DNA from: Cystobacter ferrugineus
GTDB lineage: Bacteria; Myxococcota; Myxococcia; Myxococcales; Myxococcaceae
Reading direction: 5' to 3'
Length of the DNA stretch: 64,000 nucleotides
NCBI RefSeq assembly: GCF_001887355.1
Contig: NZ_MPIN01000017.1
Location: 124,001-188,000 of the forward strand
Shown: in pieces, positions 1 to 9,192 of the stretch
How positions within the stretch are numbered: position 1 is the first letter of the stretch
How the letters are laid out: each line of letters starts with the position of its first letter
Position numbers and translations under genes: made by a program
The notes under the pieces: model-generated
What the model saw: only the letters and a program-made list of their open reading frames with translations
Databases searched by the model: none
Told to the model about the DNA's origin: nothing

Positions 1-1757
1 ACGGTGAGCGTGCCCGTCTTGTCGAAGGCGATGGCGCGCACGCCCGCGAGCAGCTCCAGGTAGATGCCACCCTTGACGAGCACGCCGCCGCGCGCCGCCG
101 CCGCCACCGCGGACAGCACCGCCGAGGGCGTGGAGATGGCGAGCGCGCAGGGTGAGGCCGCCACGAGCAGCGCCACCGCGCGCAGGACGGCCTCCTTGAG
201 CGGGGTGCCGAGCAGCACGAGCACCACCGGGAAGACGAGCGCGGCGATCATCACCAGGGGGGCGAACGTGCGCTCCAGGCGCTGGGCGAAGCGCTGGTTG
301 GGGCCCTTCTGGGCCTCGGCCTGGGCGACCATGTCCACCACCCGCGCGAGCACCGACTCCGAGGCGGGCCGCGTCACCTCCACCTCCAGCAGGGCCTCGC
401 AGTTGATGGTGCCGCTGAACACCTCGTCGCCGGGTTGTTTGGCCACGGGGATGGACTCGCCGGTGATGGCGGCCTGATCCAGCGAGCTCTTGCCCTCGCG
501 GATGATGCCGTCCAGGGGCACGCGGTCGCCGGGGCGCACGACGATGCGCGCGCCCTGGGCCACCTCTTCCACGGGAAGCTCGACGAGCTCCTCGCCCCGG
601 CGCACGCGAGCTACCTCGGGACGCAGGGCGCTGAGCGACTCGATGGACCGGCGGGCCTTGTCCATCGCCCGGTGCTCGAGCGCGTGGCCCGCGCTGAAGA
701 GGAAGAGCAGGAAGGCGCCCTCGAACCAGGCGCCGAGCACCGCCGCGCCCAGGGCCGCCACCACCATCATGGTCTCGATGTCGATGCGCCGCTGGAGCAG
801 CGACTGCACCGAGCCCTTGATGGCGAAGAAGCCACCGCTGGCCATGGACAGGGCCCAGACGAGCGTGGGGACCAGGGCGGGCACGGGGGCGAAGCGCTCG
901 AGCAGCCAGCCCACGGCGAGCAGCACGCCGGCGGCCACGACGAGGGGCATCTCGAGCAGGGGAGCGAGGCCGCCACCATGGGCATGGTGCGAGCAGACAT
1001 GGCCCGCGGTGGGCACTTCCAGCCCGTAGCCGAGCGACTTCACCCGGGCCTCGACGTCCTCGAGGGTGAGGGCCTCGCGGTCGTACTCGACCACGAGCCG
1101 CTCGCTGGCGTACGCCACGCTCGCCGAGAGGATGCCGTTCATGCGGCTCACGGCGTGCTCGATGACGGCCGCCGCGTCGCCCGAGTCCATGCCGCGCACG
1201 AACCAGGTGTGGTGGTGGTAGCGCCCGGCCACGGTGGCGCTGGTGTACTGGGCGAGCGTGAGCAGTTGCTGGGGCGCCACGCCCTCGGGCTGGTAGTGGA
1301 TGCACACCTCGGTGTGGCCCGCGTCGCGCCGCAGGTGCACGTCGGTGACACCGTGGTGGGACTTCAGGGCCGCTTCCAGCTTCTCGAAGCGGCCGACTTC
1401 ATCGGTCTCGCCCGGGAGCGCGCCTTCCAGGTCCAATTGGAGCGCGGTGCCTCCACCTTCCGCGGGCCGGTTGCCGGGCGGGCGGATCCGCTTCGGCCGG
1501 GGCGCGTGGTGGTGGTGACCGTGGTCGTGGTCATGGTTGCAGCCCGGGCCGTGGACGTGCGGCTTGTCCTCGTGCGCGTGGGCATGGCCGTGGCCATGGT
1601 CGTGGCCGTGCTTGCAGCCGGGGCCGTGCACGTGGGGCTCGTGCGCATGGTCATGGCCGTGGTCATGAGCATGGTCGTGCTTGCAGCCGGGGCCGTGCAC
1701 GTGCGGCTTCTTCTCCCGGATGTTGCTGAAGCGGGCGCTCTTCTTGGGCTCGGACAT
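1..1757 (-). CDS. Heavy-metal P1B-type ATPase, N-terminal part (gene runs off the window)
   Basis: Inner-membrane pump that would export a transition metal using ATP. 585 residues are visible; the rest of the catalytic core lies before base 1. Seen in order: a His-rich tail with three copies of an HVHGPGC-plus-His unit (about residues 12-75); two HMA-like domains lacking the usual CxxC (the second begins GMDSGD); membrane helices; the TGES actuator motif; an SPC motif in the transport helix (ASPCALAIS); and the phosphorylation motif DKTGTLT at the window edge. SPC rather than CPC is typical of P1B-4 pumps (Co, Zn, Ni or Fe(II)), so the metal is uncertain. The start is the ATG at 1757. Family is certain, substrate is not. 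Confidence 0.93.
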
Positions 1758-2062
1758 GGGGCTAGGGGCGGACGCGGTTCCGAAAACGGAACCGCGCACC
1801 GGAGGCTGGCGGGTGGTGGCGCGACCAGATCGACGGGGTGCTGCTGGCGGCCATGAGTTGGGACTGACCTCGATATTACTCGGTCGTTCCCTTTGGCGGG
1901 TTGCGCCGCTACGCCAAGAGGCTTGGTTCCCTGAGTCCCCCTTGCTCGGAGGGTGGCCAGGCTCGGTGTTGCTGATGGGGAGGTGCAGTCGCGGCGAGGT
2001 GGCGCGGCTGCCCGGGGGATGCTCTTGTCCGCACTTCACCCCGGTCAGTCACTGCCCCCCGT
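1758..2062. other. Gap upstream of the metal ATPase gene
   Basis: No convincing gene. It should hold the promoter of the minus-strand ATPase. Two weak dyads are visible: GACC...GGTC around an AT-rich centre at 1866-1885, and TTGGCG...CGCCAA at about 1894-1918. The first could be a metal-regulator operator, but its arms are imperfect. Confidence 0.3.
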
Positions 2063-2245
2063 TCATGCCCCCATGCCCTGGGGTTCATTTCGCGGGACGT
2101 TCTTCTCCGAGCCTTCCTCGGACTGTTTGGGGTGGGCCTCGTCCAGCGACTCGAGGCCTCGTGCCTGCCGCAGCCACTGCGGCCAGTGACGAATCTCCTC
2201 CTTGGCGTCGTCAATCTGCGCTTTGAGCCATCCCGGCTTACTCAC
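2063..2245 (-). CDS. Small hypothetical protein overlapping the dCTP deaminase gene
   Basis: A 60-residue charged protein (begins MSKPGWLKAQ, rich in Glu, Lys and Trp early, acidic tail) with no recognised family. The GTG start lies inside the end of the deaminase gene and overlaps its TAA stop by 8 nt. A strong GAGGAGG ribosome-binding site sits 6 nt upstream, which argues for coupled translation. Being co-expressed with an AvcD-like defence enzyme, it may be an accessory or modulator; that is inference. No signal peptide or membrane segment is seen. Confidence 0.6.
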   Translation of the reverse strand: MSKPGWLKAQIDDAKEEIRHWPQWLRQARGLESLDEAHPKQSEEGSEKNVPRNEPQGMGA

Positions 2246-3869
2246 TGGAGTCCTCCTCACCTGGTTCCACCGCCGTCCTGAAGTTAAGTCCGATTCGTTC
2301 CACAATGGAGGCGAATCGACCAAGATGTTCAACCTCCATGGCCCGGTACACAGTGTAGTTTCCTGGATGTTTCGGAACTACCTCCGTGGGCACCCAGGCG
2401 ACCACACTGCCGTCCTTGTCCTTCCGCTCTCCCTTGAGTTCGAAGAACTCCATGTATCGCCTCGGCGCCACACCCACGAACGGCGAGAAGATGACCTTCC
2501 CGGTGGAGCCTCCCTCCGATCCTTCCAGGGAAACGGAGTCTGAGTAGAGGTCCGCCGCGAGGCTCTTGGGGTAGGGATCGACGTAGACGACACGGGAGAT
2601 GCCCGCGGCAATGATGTGCCGCGCACACTCGTGGCAGGGGAAGGTGGTGACGTACATCACACTCCCCTGGACGGATACACCGCGCCGTGCGGCCTCCATG
2701 AGCGCGGCCATCTCCGCGTGAACAGGACGCATGAACTCGATGAGATTCGTCACGCGCGAGTCCCGCCAGGGTCCTGTTCCCTCCGCGTCTTTCTTCAAGA
2801 CCTGCGTGCGCAGTTCCTGCACATCCATCGTGCGGTAGGCGTCGGACAGCCACTGCTTTTCCTGCAAGAGCCGGAGGAGTTCGGAGATGAGGTCGTGCTT
2901 GTGCCGGTCACTCGTATCCACACCTCCCACGAAGTCGCGTCCATCTGGCTCGTCGCCCTCCCAGTACAAACCTCCCCCGGCCTTGGGGACTTCATTGGTG
3001 CCCACGGCGAGGAGTTCCCCCGTTGGAGTCGTGATGGCCGAACCCACTTGCCGTCCCAAGGCCGCGGAGCGCATGGCCGCGGCCTTCGCGAAGAAGATGC
3101 CCCATTCACTCTGGGTGGGCGTATGGAAGGGGTGGCCAAAGATGAGCCGTACGAAGCGCCGGATGCTGCGGTCCATTTCCCTCGGATTCGTCGCGTCGAT
3201 GAAAACATCCGCTTCGGGAAAGGCCCGTTGGACGTCCTGACCCATGGGCTCGTCCAGCTCGCGTTCATCGGTACGTACGAGGGCTTCCGCCTCGCTGCGC
3301 ATATCCATCGGACGCCGTTGACCACGGCTCTCGGAGATGCTCCGGGTGAGCTTGTCGACCCGCTTGTCTCTCGGGGCATAAGCCGACATGAGGAAGAAAG
3401 CGGGACCATAGATTTTTCGGAGTGACTCGACTTCCTCCCGTCGCTTGAGCGAATGCAGGATGTACGCACGCCGCCCGTTGCGACGATCCGCCATGAGCAG
3501 CTCATCCCTCGCCTGCCGGATGGCACTCAAGGCCAGCCACGCCATCGCGTCCGCGCGCCCCATCATCTGGCGCAGTTTGGTTCCCGCCTCCATGTGCTTC
3601 TCGTAATAGGAGAGCTTGTCCCCCTTCGAGTTCAGGTCGACGCCGAGTCCTTCGATTTCGTGCAGCAAGGACGAGAGCCGGATGGTTCTCGCCTGATAGG
3701 CCGCCTCTGCCATCAAGGCCGTGGAAAGCACCTTGGAAACTGCTTCCAGGTCTGTCCCGATGGCGCCAACCAGGCCGATGACAAGCTCCGGCGCTGATTG
3801 CGCGGCTCGTCGATTGAACTCGTCTTTTTTGTCTTTGGACAGATTGTTCTGCGGTCCTTCACCGGCCAT
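2238..3869 (-). CDS. avcD: Anti-phage dCTP/dCMP deaminase (AvcD-like)
   Basis: 543 residues with the two-part layout of AvcD-type anti-phage deaminases. The N-terminal half has a P-loop-like segment (GLVGAIGTD, residues 32-40). The C-terminal cytidine deaminase domain carries the zinc and catalytic signature: HAE at 384-386 and PCHEC with Cys412 and Cys415. In characterised relatives (V. cholerae and E. coli AvcD) phage infection releases the enzyme, which depletes dCTP/dCMP and blocks phage replication; an upstream RNA (AvcI) holds it inactive. The start is the ATG at 3869 behind a GGGGGG ribosome-binding site; an in-frame GTG at 3932 is less likely. A small ORF overlaps the 3' end. Catalytic residues are intact. 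Confidence 0.88.
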   Translation of the reverse strand: MAGEGPQNNLSKDKKDEFNRRAAQSAPELVIGLVGAIGTDLEAVSKVLSTALMAEAAYQARTIRLSSLLHEIEGLGVDLNSKGDKLSYYEKHMEAGTKLRQMMGRADAMAWLALSAIRQARDELLMADRRNGRRAYILHSLKRREEVESLRKIYGPAFFLMSAYAPRDKRVDKLTRSISESRGQRRPMDMRSEAEALVRTDERELDEPMGQDVQRAFPEADVFIDATNPREMDRSIRRFVRLIFGHPFHTPTQSEWGIFFAKAAAMRSAALGRQVGSAITTPTGELLAVGTNEVPKAGGGLYWEGDEPDGRDFVGGVDTSDRHKHDLISELLRLLQEKQWLSDAYRTMDVQELRTQVLKKDAEGTGPWRDSRVTNLIEFMRPVHAEMAALMEAARRGVSVQGSVMYVTTFPCHECARHIIAAGISRVVYVDPYPKSLAADLYSDSVSLEGSEGGSTGKVIFSPFVGVAPRRYMEFFELKGERKDKDGSVVAWVPTEVVPKHPGNYTVYRAMEVEHLGRFASIVERIGLNFRTAVEPGEEDSSE

Positions 3870-3924
3870 TGCATCGCCCCCCACATCGCAGTCGTAGCGC
3901 TGTTCGCCATCTGCCCAGAGAGGG

Positions 3925-3957
3925 GCTACCACGCTTCCACCCGACCGCTATGGTAGC
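3925..3957. promoter_or_regulatory. Perfect 7-bp dyad upstream of the deaminase gene
   Basis: GCTACCA (3925-3931) and TGGTAGC (3951-3957) form an inverted repeat with a 19-nt spacer, 56-88 nt upstream of the deaminase ATG. It could be an operator or part of a structured RNA, which is of interest because AvcD enzymes are controlled by an upstream RNA. Function is inferred from position only. Confidence 0.35.
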
Positions 3958-3988
3958 ACCCTCCTCATGACCTTGGAAGTCGTGACTG

Positions 3989-4966
3989 CTAGTGGCCGTG
4001 ACCGCGGTGCTTCCTGCGGGGGGCGGGGGCGCTCACCGGCTCGGGCTCGGGGGCGCGCTCCTCCTCGTGGTGGTCCTCATCCTCCTCGTGCTCCTCGGGG
4101 ATGGGCTGGGTGAAGCGCTGGCCCGCGACCTCCAGGGTGAAGGCCTTGCACGTGGCGGGCACGTCGAACTCGAGCACCGCGGGCAGCCGGCCCTCGTAGG
4201 TCTTCAGGGTGTTGCCCTGCTCGTCATAGACGGTGCCGCCGGCGGCGACCGTCATGGTCTCGTCCACGAGCACCGCGACGAGCTCCGCCATCTCCTCCAT
4301 GCGGTCGGCGATGCGGTGGCACCACAGGTGGCCCACGCCCGGGTAGGTCTCGTGGGAGATCTCCTCCATCTGCTCCTCGTCCACCTGCTCGCCCACGCCG
4401 ACGAACACGAAGTTCATCCGCGGCAGGCGGCCGGAGGCGATCTCCTTGGCCACCTGCGTGGCGTAGGCCATGACGTTGGGCGCGTCGGAGATCTGCGAGT
4501 CGGTGATGATGACGGCCAGGCCCCGCCGGGCGCCCACCTGGACCTGCTGCTTCATGTGGGCCACGAAGTCACGCAAGACGGGCAGCATCACCGTGGCCTT
4601 GCCGTAGGCGCGTGGGCCGGGGAAGCGGAAGTCCTTGCCCTGGGGGCCGGTCAGCTCGCCCACCTCCTCGAGCTGGCTGCCGTCACCCGTGGCCCAGTAG
4701 GCCACGCGCACCTTGCCGTCCCGGTCCTTGTTGGCCAGGTACTCGAGCATCCAGCGCATCTGCGGCTCGACCAGGTTCTTCACCGGCGCGAGCTTGGCGA
4801 GGATGCCGCGTGGTCCGTACTCGTCCTCCATGCTCGCCGAGCCGTCCATGTAGAGGGCCACGTCGAGCCCCTCCACCGTCGGATCATGCAGCAGTGTGGC
4901 CACCACCTTGTTGCCCAGGCGGTGGACGTCCGAGAACGGCTTCATGATGACTTCATGGCCCGCCAT
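3989..4966 (-). CDS. von Willebrand factor A domain protein (copy 1)
   Basis: 325 residues. The vWA domain starts at about residue 35 with an intact MIDAS motif (DGSAS, 41-45) and a later ITDSQ loop, so it should bind a divalent metal and act in protein-protein contact or complex assembly. A conserved stretch with VGHLWCHRIA follows, then a small beta-rich domain and an acidic, His-rich tail ending RGHGH. No signal peptide, so probably cytoplasmic. It is a paralogue of the next gene upstream, and its ATG overlaps that gene's stop (TGATG). With rtcB and an unknown ORF it forms a four-gene minus-strand unit. The biochemical role is unknown. Confidence 0.88.
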   Translation of the reverse strand: MAGHEVIMKPFSDVHRLGNKVVATLLHDPTVEGLDVALYMDGSASMEDEYGPRGILAKLAPVKNLVEPQMRWMLEYLANKDRDGKVRVAYWATGDGSQLEEVGELTGPQGKDFRFPGPRAYGKATVMLPVLRDFVAHMKQQVQVGARRGLAVIITDSQISDAPNVMAYATQVAKEIASGRLPRMNFVFVGVGEQVDEEQMEEISHETYPGVGHLWCHRIADRMEEMAELVAVLVDETMTVAAGGTVYDEQGNTLKTYEGRLPAVLEFDVPATCKAFTLEVAGQRFTQPIPEEHEEDEDHHEEERAPEPEPVSAPAPRRKHRGHGH

Positions 4967-5910
4967 CAGTGGTGATCCTCGTCTTCGTCTTCGTCGTGGT
5001 GGTCATCCCCGGTGGGCAGCGGCTGGGTGAAGCGCTGGCCGTTGACCTCGAGGGTGAAGCTGTTGGTGCCCTCGGGGACGTCGAACTCGAGCACCGCGGG
5101 CAGGCGGCCCTCGTACGTCTTGAGCACCTGGCCCCGGTCGCCGTAGATGGTGCCGCCGGCGGCGACGGTCATGTTCTCGTCCACGAGCACCGCGACGAGC
5201 TCGGCCACCTGGGTGATTTCCTGGGCGATGCGATGGCACCACAGGTGACCCACGCCGGGGAACTCCTCGTGGGCGATGTCCTCGAGCTGCTCCTCGTCGA
5301 TGTTGTCCCCCACGCCGACGAGCACGAAGTTGAGCCGGGGCAGCTTGCCGGAGGCGATGTCCTTGGCGACCTTCTTCGAGAACTTCTTCACCTCCTCCGC
5401 GTCGTTCAGGCGGCCGTCGGTGACGATGACGGCGCAGCCGCGACGGGCGCCCTGGCCCACCTGCTCCTTGAGGTAGCTCACGTAGTCACGCAGCGCGGGC
5501 TCGAGGTACGTGTGGTTGCCGAGCCGCTGGGGACCGGGGAACTTGTGCTGCTTGACCTCCGTGCCCTTGTACTCGCCGAGCACCTGGACGTCCCGGCCCG
5601 AGGCGCCGCAGGCCCAATAGGCCACGCGCAGCAGTCCGTTGCGATCCTTGGTGGCCAGGTACTCGAGCATCCAGCGCACCTGGGGCTCGACCTGGTTGGA
5701 CTCCTCCTTGAGCGGCGCGTCCTGCAGCCACTCCAGGAAGGAGCGCCTGGGACGCGTATACGTGTACTCCTCCTTCATGCTGCCCGAGGCGTCCATGTAG
5801 ATGGCCATGTCCAGGCCCTCCACCGTCGGATCATGCAGCAACACCGCGCGGACCTTTCCGTCCTCGACGTGGAGATCGGAGAACGGCTCGACTGGTTTTT
5901 CGTGTCCCAT
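4966..5910 (-). CDS. von Willebrand factor A domain protein (copy 2)
   Basis: 314 residues, clearly related along its whole length to its downstream neighbour: the same HDPTVEGLD lead-in, MIDAS (DASGS, 40-44), VTDGR loop, VGHLWCHRIA block and C-terminal RFTQP segment. The tail is a run of Asp, Glu and His. It contains an extra basic/aromatic insertion after the MIDAS (about 46-65) that copy 1 lacks. Start is the ATG at 5910 with a GGAGG ribosome-binding site just upstream. The duplication suggests the two act together, possibly as a heteromer with the rtcB-linked ORF. Cytoplasmic by absence of a leader. Confidence 0.88.
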   Translation of the reverse strand: MGHEKPVEPFSDLHVEDGKVRAVLLHDPTVEGLDMAIYMDASGSMKEEYTYTRPRRSFLEWLQDAPLKEESNQVEPQVRWMLEYLATKDRNGLLRVAYWACGASGRDVQVLGEYKGTEVKQHKFPGPQRLGNHTYLEPALRDYVSYLKEQVGQGARRGCAVIVTDGRLNDAEEVKKFSKKVAKDIASGKLPRLNFVLVGVGDNIDEEQLEDIAHEEFPGVGHLWCHRIAQEITQVAELVAVLVDENMTVAAGGTIYGDRGQVLKTYEGRLPAVLEFDVPEGTNSFTLEVNGQRFTQPLPTGDDHHDEDEDEDHH

Positions 5911-5967
5911 TTGTCCCCTCCTTTGCGCCCGGACGCTAGCGCTCGACGGGGGCGGGCGACAATCGGG

Positions 5968-7290
5968 TCAGTCCTCGAAATCCGACATCCACTCCGGCTT
6001 GGATGCCTGCTCTGGCGCGGAGGTGGCGGGTTTGGCTTTCTTCGAGGGCTTCGCGGGCTCCGGGGCGAAGTCCTTCATCCACTCCGCGGAGGTGTCCGGC
6101 GAGGGGCGCTGGGGCGGCGGCGCGGGCCGGGGAGGCGCGACGGCCGCGCGCGAGCGGGTGATGCGCGCCTGGGTGCCGCCCGGGCGGGCGTGCGCGTCGA
6201 GGAAGTCCTGCATCCAGTCGCTCGGGCGGGCGGGAGCGGGCGGAGCGCGGGGGGGCAGGGGCGCGGGAGGTGGGCGCGGCGCGGAGGGCGCGAGGGGCGT
6301 GGGGCTCGGGACGGTGGCCGGACCGGCGCGTTCCCGGGAGCGCAGCGCGCGCTCCGTCTCGCTCGGCCACCCCGGGAGGACGTCCAGGGCCCGACGCGCC
6401 AGGTCGAGGAACTCGGGCGTGCCGGCCTCGCGGGGGACCGTGAGCTTCTCGGGGTTGAGCCACTCGGCGATCCGGTTCACGAGCCCCGGGTGGTTGCGGC
6501 GGAGGATGGCCACGTCGCCCTTCACCTCGTAGCCGCGCGACTCCAGCTCCGCGATGGCCAGCATGCGGCTGGGCACGGGCAGCTCCAGCTCCGCGAGGGC
6601 CCGGGGGCCCCCATGCGCGCGGGCGGAGTGCTGGAGCGCCTCGAGCACCTCGTGCAGGAGCGTCGCGACGAGGGGGCCATTGCCGGCGTGGCGCGTCTGC
6701 ATGTCCAGGGGCACCGCGGGATAGGCGAGCACCAATCCCTCTCCCTGGGCGAGGTGCTCGGGCCGATCGCCGGGCAGCAGCGCGTGCCAGGCGCGCGGGG
6801 GCAGCCGGCTCTCGGGATCATGCGCGTAGTGCAGGGCGTCGGCGGCGCCGTGGACGAGCCCGGCGAGCAGGTCCCCCCGCGTCACGGTGAGCTGGCCCGG
6901 GACGCGCTGGGACGTGGTGCCGGGATGGGGACCCGACAGGCGCCCGTAGAGGTAGACGGGATCATTCACGCCCTGGGCATCCGCGGGGTGCTCGACGAGC
7001 TCCACGGACAGGAGGAAGAGGGCGGGGGCGAGGATGCGCCGGGGGGTGCGGCCGGAGACGAGCTCGTGGTGGGTGAACTGGGCGCGGGTGCTGGCCGGCA
7101 GGAGCTCGCGCTCCTCGGCGGGCACGCAGACCAGGTCCCCGGTGATGTCGGTGCACACGAGCCACTCCCGCTCGCCCGAGGGCCCGGCGAGGCGGAACGC
7201 GTCCACGGCGTGCACGAGGGCGGAGAGGTCGAGCGCGAGGGGCTCGGCGGGGCTGGTGGCGTGGGGGACGAAGTAGCGGGGAGGGCGCAC
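5968..7290 (-). CDS. Unknown protein with three C-terminal WMxDF motifs, between rtcB and vWA genes
   Basis: About 440 residues, no family recognised. An ordered N-terminal domain (roughly 1-300) is followed by a Pro/Ala-rich tail holding three short motifs: SDWMQDF (357-363), AEWMKDF (402-408) and PEWMSDFED at the very C-terminus (432-440). Such spaced repeats in a disordered tail usually bind a partner; the neighbouring vWA proteins are natural candidates, by inference. The start is uncertain: the GTG at 7290 is the first in-frame candidate after the rtcB stop, with a GGGGG run about 20 nt upstream. The frame stays open into rtcB, but that part is antiregister coding. Confidence 0.75.
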   Translation of the reverse strand: MRPPRYFVPHATSPAEPLALDLSALVHAVDAFRLAGPSGEREWLVCTDITGDLVCVPAEERELLPASTRAQFTHHELVSGRTPRRILAPALFLLSVELVEHPADAQGVNDPVYLYGRLSGPHPGTTSQRVPGQLTVTRGDLLAGLVHGAADALHYAHDPESRLPPRAWHALLPGDRPEHLAQGEGLVLAYPAVPLDMQTRHAGNGPLVATLLHEVLEALQHSARAHGGPRALAELELPVPSRMLAIAELESRGYEVKGDVAILRRNHPGLVNRIAEWLNPEKLTVPREAGTPEFLDLARRALDVLPGWPSETERALRSRERAGPATVPSPTPLAPSAPRPPPAPLPPRAPPAPARPSDWMQDFLDAHARPGGTQARITRSRAAVAPPRPAPPPQRPSPDTSAEWMKDFAPEPAKPSKKAKPATSAPEQASKPEWMSDFED

Positions 7291-7340
7291 GGGAGCGGCG
7301 GCGAGCGTCCCCCAAACCGGGCGGGAGGGGCAAGCTCCCG

Positions 7341-8693
7341 TCAGTCCGCGCCCTTGATGCAGGCCACCGGCTTGAGGCGCCGGGCCACCGTGGCCAGGCC
7401 CGCCATCTCCACCGTGTTGAGCACGTCGTCGAGGTTCTTGTAGCAGGGGCCCGACTCGTCCAGCGGCGTGGTGCGCGTGTTGAGGAGGATGTCGGCCTCC
7501 ATCATGCGCAGGTCCGTCTCGTCCTGGTCGAGCACCCGCCGCGCCTCGCCGCGCGACAGCCGCCGCCCCGCGCCGTGGTTCACCGAGTAGATGGACTGCG
7601 AGGCCCCCTTCTCGGCGAAGAGGATGGCGCTGCCGGTCTCCATGGAGCCGGGGATGAGGATGGGGTGGCCGCTCTTGGCCCAGGGCGTGCCGGTGAGGGC
7701 GGGGTGCCCGCCGGGGAAGGCGCGCGTGGCGCCCTTGCGTGCCACGAACCGGCCCGACTCCTTCTGGATGAGGTTGTGGGAGATCTCGTAGTAGATGCTC
7801 GCCGTGCCGCCGAACACGTCCTCGAGCGCCCCGCACACCGCCTCGCCGATGAGCAGCCGGTTGGCCACCGCGAAGTTGGCCGCCATGTTGTGCAGGTTCC
7901 AGTACTCCCGGCCCAGGCGGCTGTCGGCGTCCAGCCAGATGAAGTCCTCGCTGTGCTTGCCGAGTCCCAGCGCCGCCGCGCCCTCCACGAAGAAGTGCTT
8001 GGCGATGTTCCAGCCGAAGCCGCGGCTGCCCGTGTGCAGCATCACCCACACGCGCCCGGACTCGTCCACCTGCATCTCGGTGAAGTGGTTGCCCCCGCCG
8101 AGGCTGCCGAGCTGCTCGCGCTTCTCGTAGGCCCGCGTGGGGATGTCCACCCGGTCATCCTCCACCGGCAGGAAGTCCCGCTCGGTGGCGGACGCGTGGC
8201 GGCCGAGCGCCTGGGCTCCGTGTCGCACGACCTCGGCGAAGGTGCGCGCGTCGATGCGGCGCTGCTTCTGCACCCGTGACGCGCCCACGCCCACCGCGAT
8301 GCGCCGGGTGACCTCGTCGATCCACTGGCGGCGCCTGGCGGGGTCCGCCACGTCCTCGGCGGTGAGAGTGGTCTGCAACTGCACCATGCCGCAGCCGATG
8401 TCGTAACCGGCCGCGGTGGGCAGCAGCACGCCCTCGGTCTCCACCACCGTGCCGATGGGCACGCCGTAGCCCACGTGGCAGTCCGGCGTCACCGCCACGC
8501 GCGTGACACCCGGGAAGGAGGCGGCGTTGACCACCTGATTGAAGACGGCCTCCTCGAGCCCGGGCGACTCGGGGCCCTCGCCCCACAAGAGCTTGTCCGA
8601 GAGGAAGAGGTGGGCCTCCACCCGCATCGTCTTCGTCTTGGGCAGCACGAAGTGCCCCGGCGCGATCTTCTCCAACTGTTGCGTCCAACTCAT
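7341..8693 (-). CDS. rtcB: RNA-splicing ligase RtcB
   Basis: 450 residues. RtcB joins RNA 2',3'-cyclic phosphate or 3'-phosphate ends to 5'-OH ends using Mn and GTP, acting in RNA repair. Signatures seen: PDCHVGYG (70-77), DIGCGM with the metal-binding Cys101, GGGNHF, GSRGFGW, and the guanylylated histidine in NHGAGR (His373). Length is nearer the bacterial-type RtcB (about 400) than the archaeal form. The ATG at 8693 has a strong GGGAGGGAG site. It leads a minus-strand set with an unknown ORF and two vWA genes. I found neither rtcA nor an rtcR-type activator next to it. Confidence 0.96.
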   Translation of the reverse strand: MSWTQQLEKIAPGHFVLPKTKTMRVEAHLFLSDKLLWGEGPESPGLEEAVFNQVVNAASFPGVTRVAVTPDCHVGYGVPIGTVVETEGVLLPTAAGYDIGCGMVQLQTTLTAEDVADPARRRQWIDEVTRRIAVGVGASRVQKQRRIDARTFAEVVRHGAQALGRHASATERDFLPVEDDRVDIPTRAYEKREQLGSLGGGNHFTEMQVDESGRVWVMLHTGSRGFGWNIAKHFFVEGAAALGLGKHSEDFIWLDADSRLGREYWNLHNMAANFAVANRLLIGEAVCGALEDVFGGTASIYYEISHNLIQKESGRFVARKGATRAFPGGHPALTGTPWAKSGHPILIPGSMETGSAILFAEKGASQSIYSVNHGAGRRLSRGEARRVLDQDETDLRMMEADILLNTRTTPLDESGPCYKNLDDVLNTVEMAGLATVARRLKPVACIKGAD

Positions 8694-8898
8694 GGCGTTC
8701 TCCCTCCCTGGGCGTTTCTCAACACCCGGCAGCGACGCGAGCGTCCAGGGGGCCTGACGAAAGCGAGCGGCCAACCATGCGCCTGGCCCATGCCTGCGTG
8801 CACCGCATGGCACCGTACGCCGGCCCCAGTTGCACCCGCTCGGAAGAATTCCCACTTATTTCGCGAGTGGTGGCGTGGTGCATCAAGGGGGTAGGGAG

Positions 8899-9192
8899 AT
8901 GGGGCTTTTCGGAGCGTTGGTGGTGGCGATGGCGGTGCAGGCGGGTCCGGTCGAAGTGAAGGCGGCGCCGGTGTTCAATCCGTCGCTGTGCGCGAAGAAG
9001 CGCGTGGACTCGTGCGGTTGCCATCATGTCTATGGGGTGCGTCACTGCCACAGCAAGCGGCAGAGCGGCCACTGCGAGGGCCTGGTGAAGGCGGACGACG
9101 CCTCCCAGCGCGGCGCCTCCCAGGTGGACGACTTCCTCTCCACGCTGCCCGGCACCGCCGCGCACGAGCACGAGGACACCGTGACGCTCTGA
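8899..9192 (+). CDS. Small secreted Cys/His-rich protein
   Basis: 97 residues. A short signal peptide (MGLFGALVVAMAVQAGP) is followed by a segment with five cysteines and several histidines (SCGCHHVYGVRHCH is the core), then an acidic tail. The spacing suggests disulfides or metal binding, but no family was recognised. ATG at 8899 follows a GGGAG site. It is divergent from rtcB across about 205 bp and upstream of a response regulator gene in the same direction. Confidence 0.6.
   Translation: MGLFGALVVAMAVQAGPVEVKAAPVFNPSLCAKKRVDSCGCHHVYGVRHCHSKRQSGHCEGLVKADDASQRGASQVDDFLSTLPGTAAHEHEDTVTL

Follow-up and report, generated by a model that had tools for sequence, protein, structure and literature searches.

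A conserved WPxW microprotein encoded directly downstream of an anti-phage-family deaminase in Cystobacter ferrugineus is a candidate protein regulator

AvcD-type deaminases are taken as RNA-controlled. In the AvcID systems, according to the portions of PMC10511110 and PMC12409362 that we drew on, the AvcI RNA antitoxin is about 280 nt long and is encoded next to avcD. The literature covered here, which comprises those portions together with parts of PMC10121019 and has the founding studies of Hsueh et al. 2022 and Tal et al. 2022 outside its scope, holds no description of a downstream protein partner; the main text of PMC9122126 makes no mention of a deaminase. The enzyme is already known. 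Within the limits of this coverage, the downstream partner and its exchange from clade to clade look new. The locus described here lies in a 64,000-nt stretch of Cystobacter ferrugineus DNA (contig NZ_MPIN01000017.1, positions 124,001 to 188,000 of the forward strand), the whole of which is referred to as the window. Its features are listed in Table 1.

Table 1. Features of the deaminase and microprotein locus, in window coordinates
Feature	Position	Strand	Basis or remark
Accessory module (deaminase, microprotein, about 300 nt)	1764..3985		Block absent from same-genus genome G003
WPxW microprotein ORF, 60 aa	2063..2245	-	GTG at 2245; position, motif, first-half constraint
WPQW codons, microprotein residues 21-24	2174..2185	-	Sequence
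Deaminase, 543 aa	2238..3869	-	ATG at 3869, stop ends at 2238; P-loop-kinase-like N-terminal half and dCMP-deaminase-like half
Shine-Dalgarno-like GAGGAGG	2252..2258	-	6 nt before the microprotein GTG
PCHEC zinc motif	2625..2639	-	PCHxC in 94/94 aligned deaminases
HAE catalytic motif	2712..2720	-	In 94/94 aligned deaminases
P-loop-like GLVGAIGTDL	3747..3776	-	Sequence and alignment; without Walker-A lysine
Upstream gap, 119 nt	3870..3988	-	VWA-like gene stop to deaminase ATG

The deaminase frame is intact, with a second candidate start at GTG 3932. It scored 434.8 bits against the NCBIfam model NF041025, 'anti-phage dCTP deaminase' (curated cut-off 400 bits), with residues 28–483 covering the whole profile, and 509.5 bits against the PADLOC dCTPase model; Pfam dCMP_cyt_deam_1 also matched. 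Judged by these profiles, the window deaminase is a member of the anti-phage dCTP deaminase family. A previous sequence-only reading of this DNA had described an intact deaminase with HAE and PCHEC motifs, both of which are present, and a P-loop-like N-terminal half. The predicted fold (mean pLDDT 84.9, pTM 0.83) has two halves, and in Foldseek searches the model matched dCMP deaminases (human, T4 and S. mutans) and also 3h0k and 3lw7 (adenylate-kinase-related protein). These last matches point to a P-loop-kinase-like N-terminal half, as does the profile search, and they agree with that description although the Walker-A lysine is missing. It is likewise missing throughout the two WPxW groups described below (25 rows, 24 of which have letters at the site).

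Just upstream of the deaminase are two tandem, weakly VWA-like genes (window 3989–5910; Pfam E 0.11 and 0.00036, both below cut-off). A reverse-strand gene at window 1490–1758, which we take to be heavy-metal-ATPase-like, begins with a His-rich stretch in which HVHGPGC units recur.

The sequence-only reading had also drawn attention to a 60-aa ORF with a strong ribosome-binding site, overlapping the deaminase stop. This observation was confirmed: the GAGGAGG string is in place and the overlap is 8 nt (GTGAGTAA). We looked for loss or frameshift of the small ORF beside close homologues of the deaminase and found the same 60-codon ORF, in frame and with GAGGAGG ahead of its GTG start, in all three distinct ones: L003 from the same genus, L032 from Hyalangium versicolor, and L039 (L036 is identical in sequence to L032 and was not counted separately). 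The deaminase frame is longer in L032 and L039, where the overlap with the small ORF is 59 and 38 nt, respectively. Comparing these three ORFs and that of the window, the first half (30 codons) is constrained, with dN of 0–0.044 in all six pairs and dS of 0.24–0.49 in five of the six, the L032–L039 pair being without synonymous change. The second half is much less constrained, dN reaching 0.5; in the pair of the window and L003, its dN (0.099) was greater than its dS (0.05). Across the pairs, the ratio for the whole ORF was 0.24–0.48.

High G+C DNA is rich in chance ORFs, so the small ORF might be no more than a chance open frame. However, a WPxW small ORF was found close after the deaminase stop at 16 of the 91 non-redundant loci with at least 400 nt of downstream sequence, compared with 9 of 6450 background windows taken from the rest of this DNA; among other small ORFs, the count was 5 of 4573. 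This background control and the constraint on the first half, together with the motif and the position, led us to reject a chance origin, which we regard as scarcely credible.

The window microprotein reads WPQWL after a predicted helix and is encoded directly downstream of the deaminase, in keeping with the family pattern (a helix, then WPxW[KRML]). Among 13 aligned partners, W21 is invariant and P22 and W24 are each found in at least 90%. The fold model, which is of low confidence (mean pLDDT 66), places helices at residues 6–19 and 23–28. The constant features of these partners are the translation-coupled place directly downstream, the small size and the helix–WPxW core. Searches of the window microprotein against Pfam, NCBIfam and PADLOC gave no match over a curated cut-off, and a search against PDB sequences gave none at E up to 1. 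It was recovered weakly (E 0.042; best background ORF 0.58) by a profile built from the sister clade.

Other myxobacteria were where the sequence-only reading had suggested seeking the small ORF beside AvcD homologues. Of 193 Myxococcota genomes, 13 score above the NF041025 cut-off, and all 13 have a downstream partner, which is a WPxW microprotein directly downstream in eight and a longer gene in five. Elsewhere, WPxW hosts include Vibrio nigripulchritudo (L065, on a plasmid), contigs classed as viral (L078, L080, L081, L083, L085 and L098) and E. coli. In E. coli L161, the pair is flanked on one side by a phage polarity suppression gene and on the other by an integrase at tRNA-Sec, as in a P4-like satellite. 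Close copies of the L161 deaminase were present in 12 of 5426 E. coli genomes, and all 12 retain the microprotein; because they are at least 99% identical, they count as one lineage. The breadth outside Myxococcota comes from the plasmid, phage, viral-contig and E. coli collections, since the single-protein contig scan gave one relative. From these collections we took in 15 of the 54 plasmid records, 2 of the 5 phage records and 4 of the 83 E. coli genomes that had a match. Searching plasmids with single partners by tblastn gave nothing convincing.

The microprotein could simply share the operon and play no direct part in control of the deaminase. Translation coupling alone is no proof of joint function, and three deaminases near the WPxW rows in the tree described below, L162 (E. 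coli), L066 and L095, have no recognisable WPxW ORF. The partner is therefore not always needed. Against this explanation, the WPxW partner recurs in unrelated hosts beside deaminases that share only about 30–45% identity, and we consider a bystander role very unlikely. The E. coli locus, from strain 789, has a WPxW-group deaminase and no recognisable partner either upstream or downstream.

By identity of the last 250 residues, 112 deaminase frames were reduced to 96. L091 and L158 were left out for want of a full deaminase frame and L073 because its deaminase is in two genes. As to natural fusions of deaminase and microprotein, which would be a sign of contact between the two, WPxW was not found within any of the 96 non-redundant frames. 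L073, on a Mycolicibacterium fortuitum plasmid, has the deaminase annotated as two overlapping genes, one for the P-loop half and one for the deaminase half, after which comes a 57-aa gene, again overlapping.

Two partial or too short sequences (L143 and L160) were dropped to give a quick maximum-likelihood tree of 94 rows, with SH-aLRT support only and a midpoint root. Partner type follows this tree: with the labels D, Q and 'degenerate' assigned by eye, the label changed 11 times, where shuffling gave a mean of 40.8 and none of 200 shuffles went as low. In a first WPxW group (support 99), 11 of 13 rows have a WPxW partner. The window-type deaminases form a group of four rows (support 100), nested in a wider and looser group of 12 (support 85), where five rows have WPxW, five have a degenerate or doubtful motif and two have neither. 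Of the six rows labelled 'degenerate WPxW', only L084 is supported by profile (E 0.16 and 0.00093). The next starred set around this wider group also contains 24 rows without a partner; these make up, together with 22 rows that group with the ETEC AvcD and four others, the 50 rows that have none of these partners.

Two further partner types each fall in one group. The partners of about 70 aa with a 'QLxLxF' motif (12 rows; support 85) are found at L072, L128, L130, L134, L135, L137, L138, L147, L149, L151, L154 and L155 and span about 62–94 aa; QLxLxF/L stands at the start of 6 of the 12, against a shuffle mean of 0.13. Partners of 170–214 aa (10 rows; support 97, with one unlabelled row in the group) are found at L035, L038, L043, L044, L045, L074, L077, L142, L150 and L152. 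A QLxLF-type motif occurs in 5 of these 10 (shuffle mean 0.56), and one of the three longer partners scanned, L035, contains Pfam DUF488 (1.2e-9). The QLxLF/QLxLxF motifs of these sister-clade partners resemble the bacterial sliding-clamp-binding motif, and the partner of about 62–94 aa is, by its motif, possibly a replisome-linked adaptor. The class of downstream partner, whether WPxW, 170–214 aa, QLxLxF of about 70 aa or none, goes with the deaminase clade.

The ETEC AvcD (L071) belongs to a 22-row clade with support 100. In the quick tree, the window deaminase lies outside this clade, several starred branches away. Of the earlier designation 'AvcD-type', membership of the anti-phage deaminase family stands, while a grouping with the AvcI-RNA systems that own the name AvcID does not. 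The clade with the published AvcI-RNA systems has none of the three downstream partner types.

Upstream of avcD, 14 of the 22 rows of the AvcID clade have a short ORF, nine of these ending in a lone W and five in [FL]D. The short ORF (L068–L071, L075, L076, L079, L127, L140, L144, L153, L156, L163 and L164) sits where AvcI is described. An upstream short ORF of this type was found in 0 of 19 WPxW-type and near rows, several rows in both sets having little upstream sequence. The upstream regions of eight AvcID-clade loci align poorly, with a mean column identity of 42%.

Since only 119 nt separate the window deaminase from the gene upstream, there is no room there for a free-standing AvcI of the roughly 280 nt given in the portions of the AvcID papers used here. 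A scan of positions 1700–4300 against Rfam gave no family over its threshold. With a gap of this size, no Rfam family and no AvcI-type ORF, an AvcI hidden upstream of the window deaminase is not supported; an AvcI-like RNA may begin inside the upstream gene.

We then turn to loci where the enzyme is missing or damaged. A profile of the 13 partners, run over the 193 Myxococcota genomes, gave at least 11 strong matches, all at E 1.3e-11 or lower, from nine genomes; five of the 11 are rows of the profile itself. There were 22 matches in all, the other 11 at E 0.002–0.008; as 34 candidates were scored per genome, the count is a lower bound. Eight strong matches lie beside an intact deaminase, one beside a frameshifted deaminase and two beside scraps of it only. 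At G154:C7 the microprotein is open and the deaminase is in two frames, where an assembly error is possible. At G122:C1, 12 identical residues of the deaminase N-terminus open the microprotein frame and the remaining enzyme is gone. G189:C46 has an intact microprotein preceded, in the right position, by 16 residues that resemble the C-terminus of the deaminase (E 0.27). The remnants at these last two loci are short. In the same genus as the window, a blastn comparison of window positions 1–9000 with stretches of G003 and G002 defined the block that G003 lacks. From this joint absence and the three myxobacterial loci, it follows that enzyme and microprotein move together and that the microprotein can outlast a decaying enzyme.

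A small protein encoded beside a presumed toxin is the gene layout of type II toxin–antitoxin systems, and the window pair has this layout. A partner that persists after its enzyme has gone is what one expects of an antitoxin that does no harm by itself, and the enzyme-less loci thus count in favour of an antitoxin role. Because the microprotein outlives the enzyme in three loci, we take inhibition as its most likely function. We tentatively propose that the deaminase and the downstream 60-aa WPxW microprotein constitute a two-gene anti-phage module. As family membership suggests, the deaminase would convert dCTP/dCMP and so starve phage DNA synthesis. The microprotein, whose translation is probably coupled to the end of the deaminase gene, would regulate the deaminase as a protein, most likely by binding and inhibiting it in the manner of an antitoxin. 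It would be lost once infection shuts down host gene expression, and it would stand in for the AvcI RNA of the AvcID systems. For the window pair, we infer binding, inhibition, release on infection and protection against phage. This is the explanation that we favour, and we hold it at somewhat short of even confidence. Points that weigh against it are the partnerless loci L162, L066 and L095, the modest support (85) of the wider group around the window deaminase, the weak profile recovery of the window microprotein and its lack of a PHROG match, the short remnants at the two deletion loci with the possible assembly error at G154:C7, and the phage modules described next, which have no deaminase close by in the stretches read.

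The helix–WPxW module is also found in phage proteins. With a partner as query we reached two small proteins, one of 38 aa in Erwinia phage Kaldavass and one of 37 aa in Xanthomonas phage XbC2, each encoded near a polynucleotide kinase. The same route led to the tail of a 108-aa Peat1 protein that phiTE has as well, and a wider search added longer proteins of phages D3, CHA_P1 and AAS21, those of D3 and CHA_P1 reading WPxY. Among 4667 background ORFs, a 10-partner profile found the Kaldavass protein at E 4e-10 and the XbC2 protein at 7e-8; the phage proteins as a whole ranged from 4e-10 to 0.03, with the best background ORF at 0.58. In the reverse direction, a profile of the phage proteins found partners at 2e-7 and the window microprotein at 0.028. 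The PHROG family phrog_38465 matches 7 of the 13 partners, the best (E 1e-14) being one encoded on a faecal contig labelled as phage; it also matches both of the 37–38 aa jumbo-phage microproteins. The window microprotein itself had no match in PHROG at E up to 1, phrog_38465 and phrog_29728 included; for these two phage protein families no function is given. In the stretches read around the phage modules, no deaminase was found.

One explanation of the phage copies is counter-defence, in which the WPxWK module would inhibit WPxW-type deaminases as a borrowed antitoxin. The two-way profile matches and the link through phrog_38465 speak for it. However, the link is partly by design, because for some of the phage proteins it was a partner that served as the query, and most further matches are weak, with 61 of 75 phage records at about E 0.1 or weaker, or not listed. 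The module also lies inside longer phage proteins that lack an assigned function. We consider counter-defence unlikely; it is compatible with an inhibitory microprotein and would support that explanation. A wider scheme, which strikes us as rather unlikely, is that in one branch of these deaminases the microprotein is the bacterial copy of a short helix and WPxWK module that phages carry too. The host copy would hold the deaminase, and the phage copy would either free the enzyme by competing, the module then being the trigger, or act as a borrowed antitoxin and silence it. Here the control element would be swapped across clades between RNA, WPxW, QLxLxF and 170–214 aa forms.

The microprotein could instead be an activator, an adaptor or a sensor of infection, sensing a phage product or tethering a deaminase, idle alone, to the site where it acts. 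The occurrence of the module in phage proteins, free-standing or within larger ones, is what would be expected of an interaction module, and the QLxLF/QLxLxF motifs of the sister-clade partners suggest adaptors through their likeness to the clamp motif. On the other side, microproteins are retained where the deaminase is deleted or broken, clamp binding is a resemblance of motifs only and the WPxW class itself falls outside that motif. We regard an activator or sensor as a serious possibility, nearly as possible as an inhibitor: it would give the same linkage of the two genes, and inhibition itself is something that we infer.

If large branches of these deaminases are protein-controlled and the control is swapped by clade, constructs carrying the deaminase only may misreport its activity. 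On the same two conditions, infection sensing by these deaminases becomes testable with a protein of 50–70 aa. The common phage module is a concrete candidate for trigger or counter-defence.

Compared with AvcID, a type III toxin–antitoxin system of Vibrio and E. coli (ETEC), the window deaminase is of the same family, with the same two-half architecture and the HAE and PCHxC motifs. AvcID as described in the portions used here has an RNA of about 280 nt beside avcD, whereas at the window locus the upstream gap is 119 nt, a microprotein follows downstream and the deaminase falls elsewhere in the tree. The window deaminase scores above the cut-off of NF041025, and this model and PADLOC dCTPase cover the enzyme only, with no partner. 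With ToxIN-like defence, in which a toxin is freed when host transcription is shut off, the proposed common logic would be release on infection; the difference is that the regulator in the window system would be a protein.
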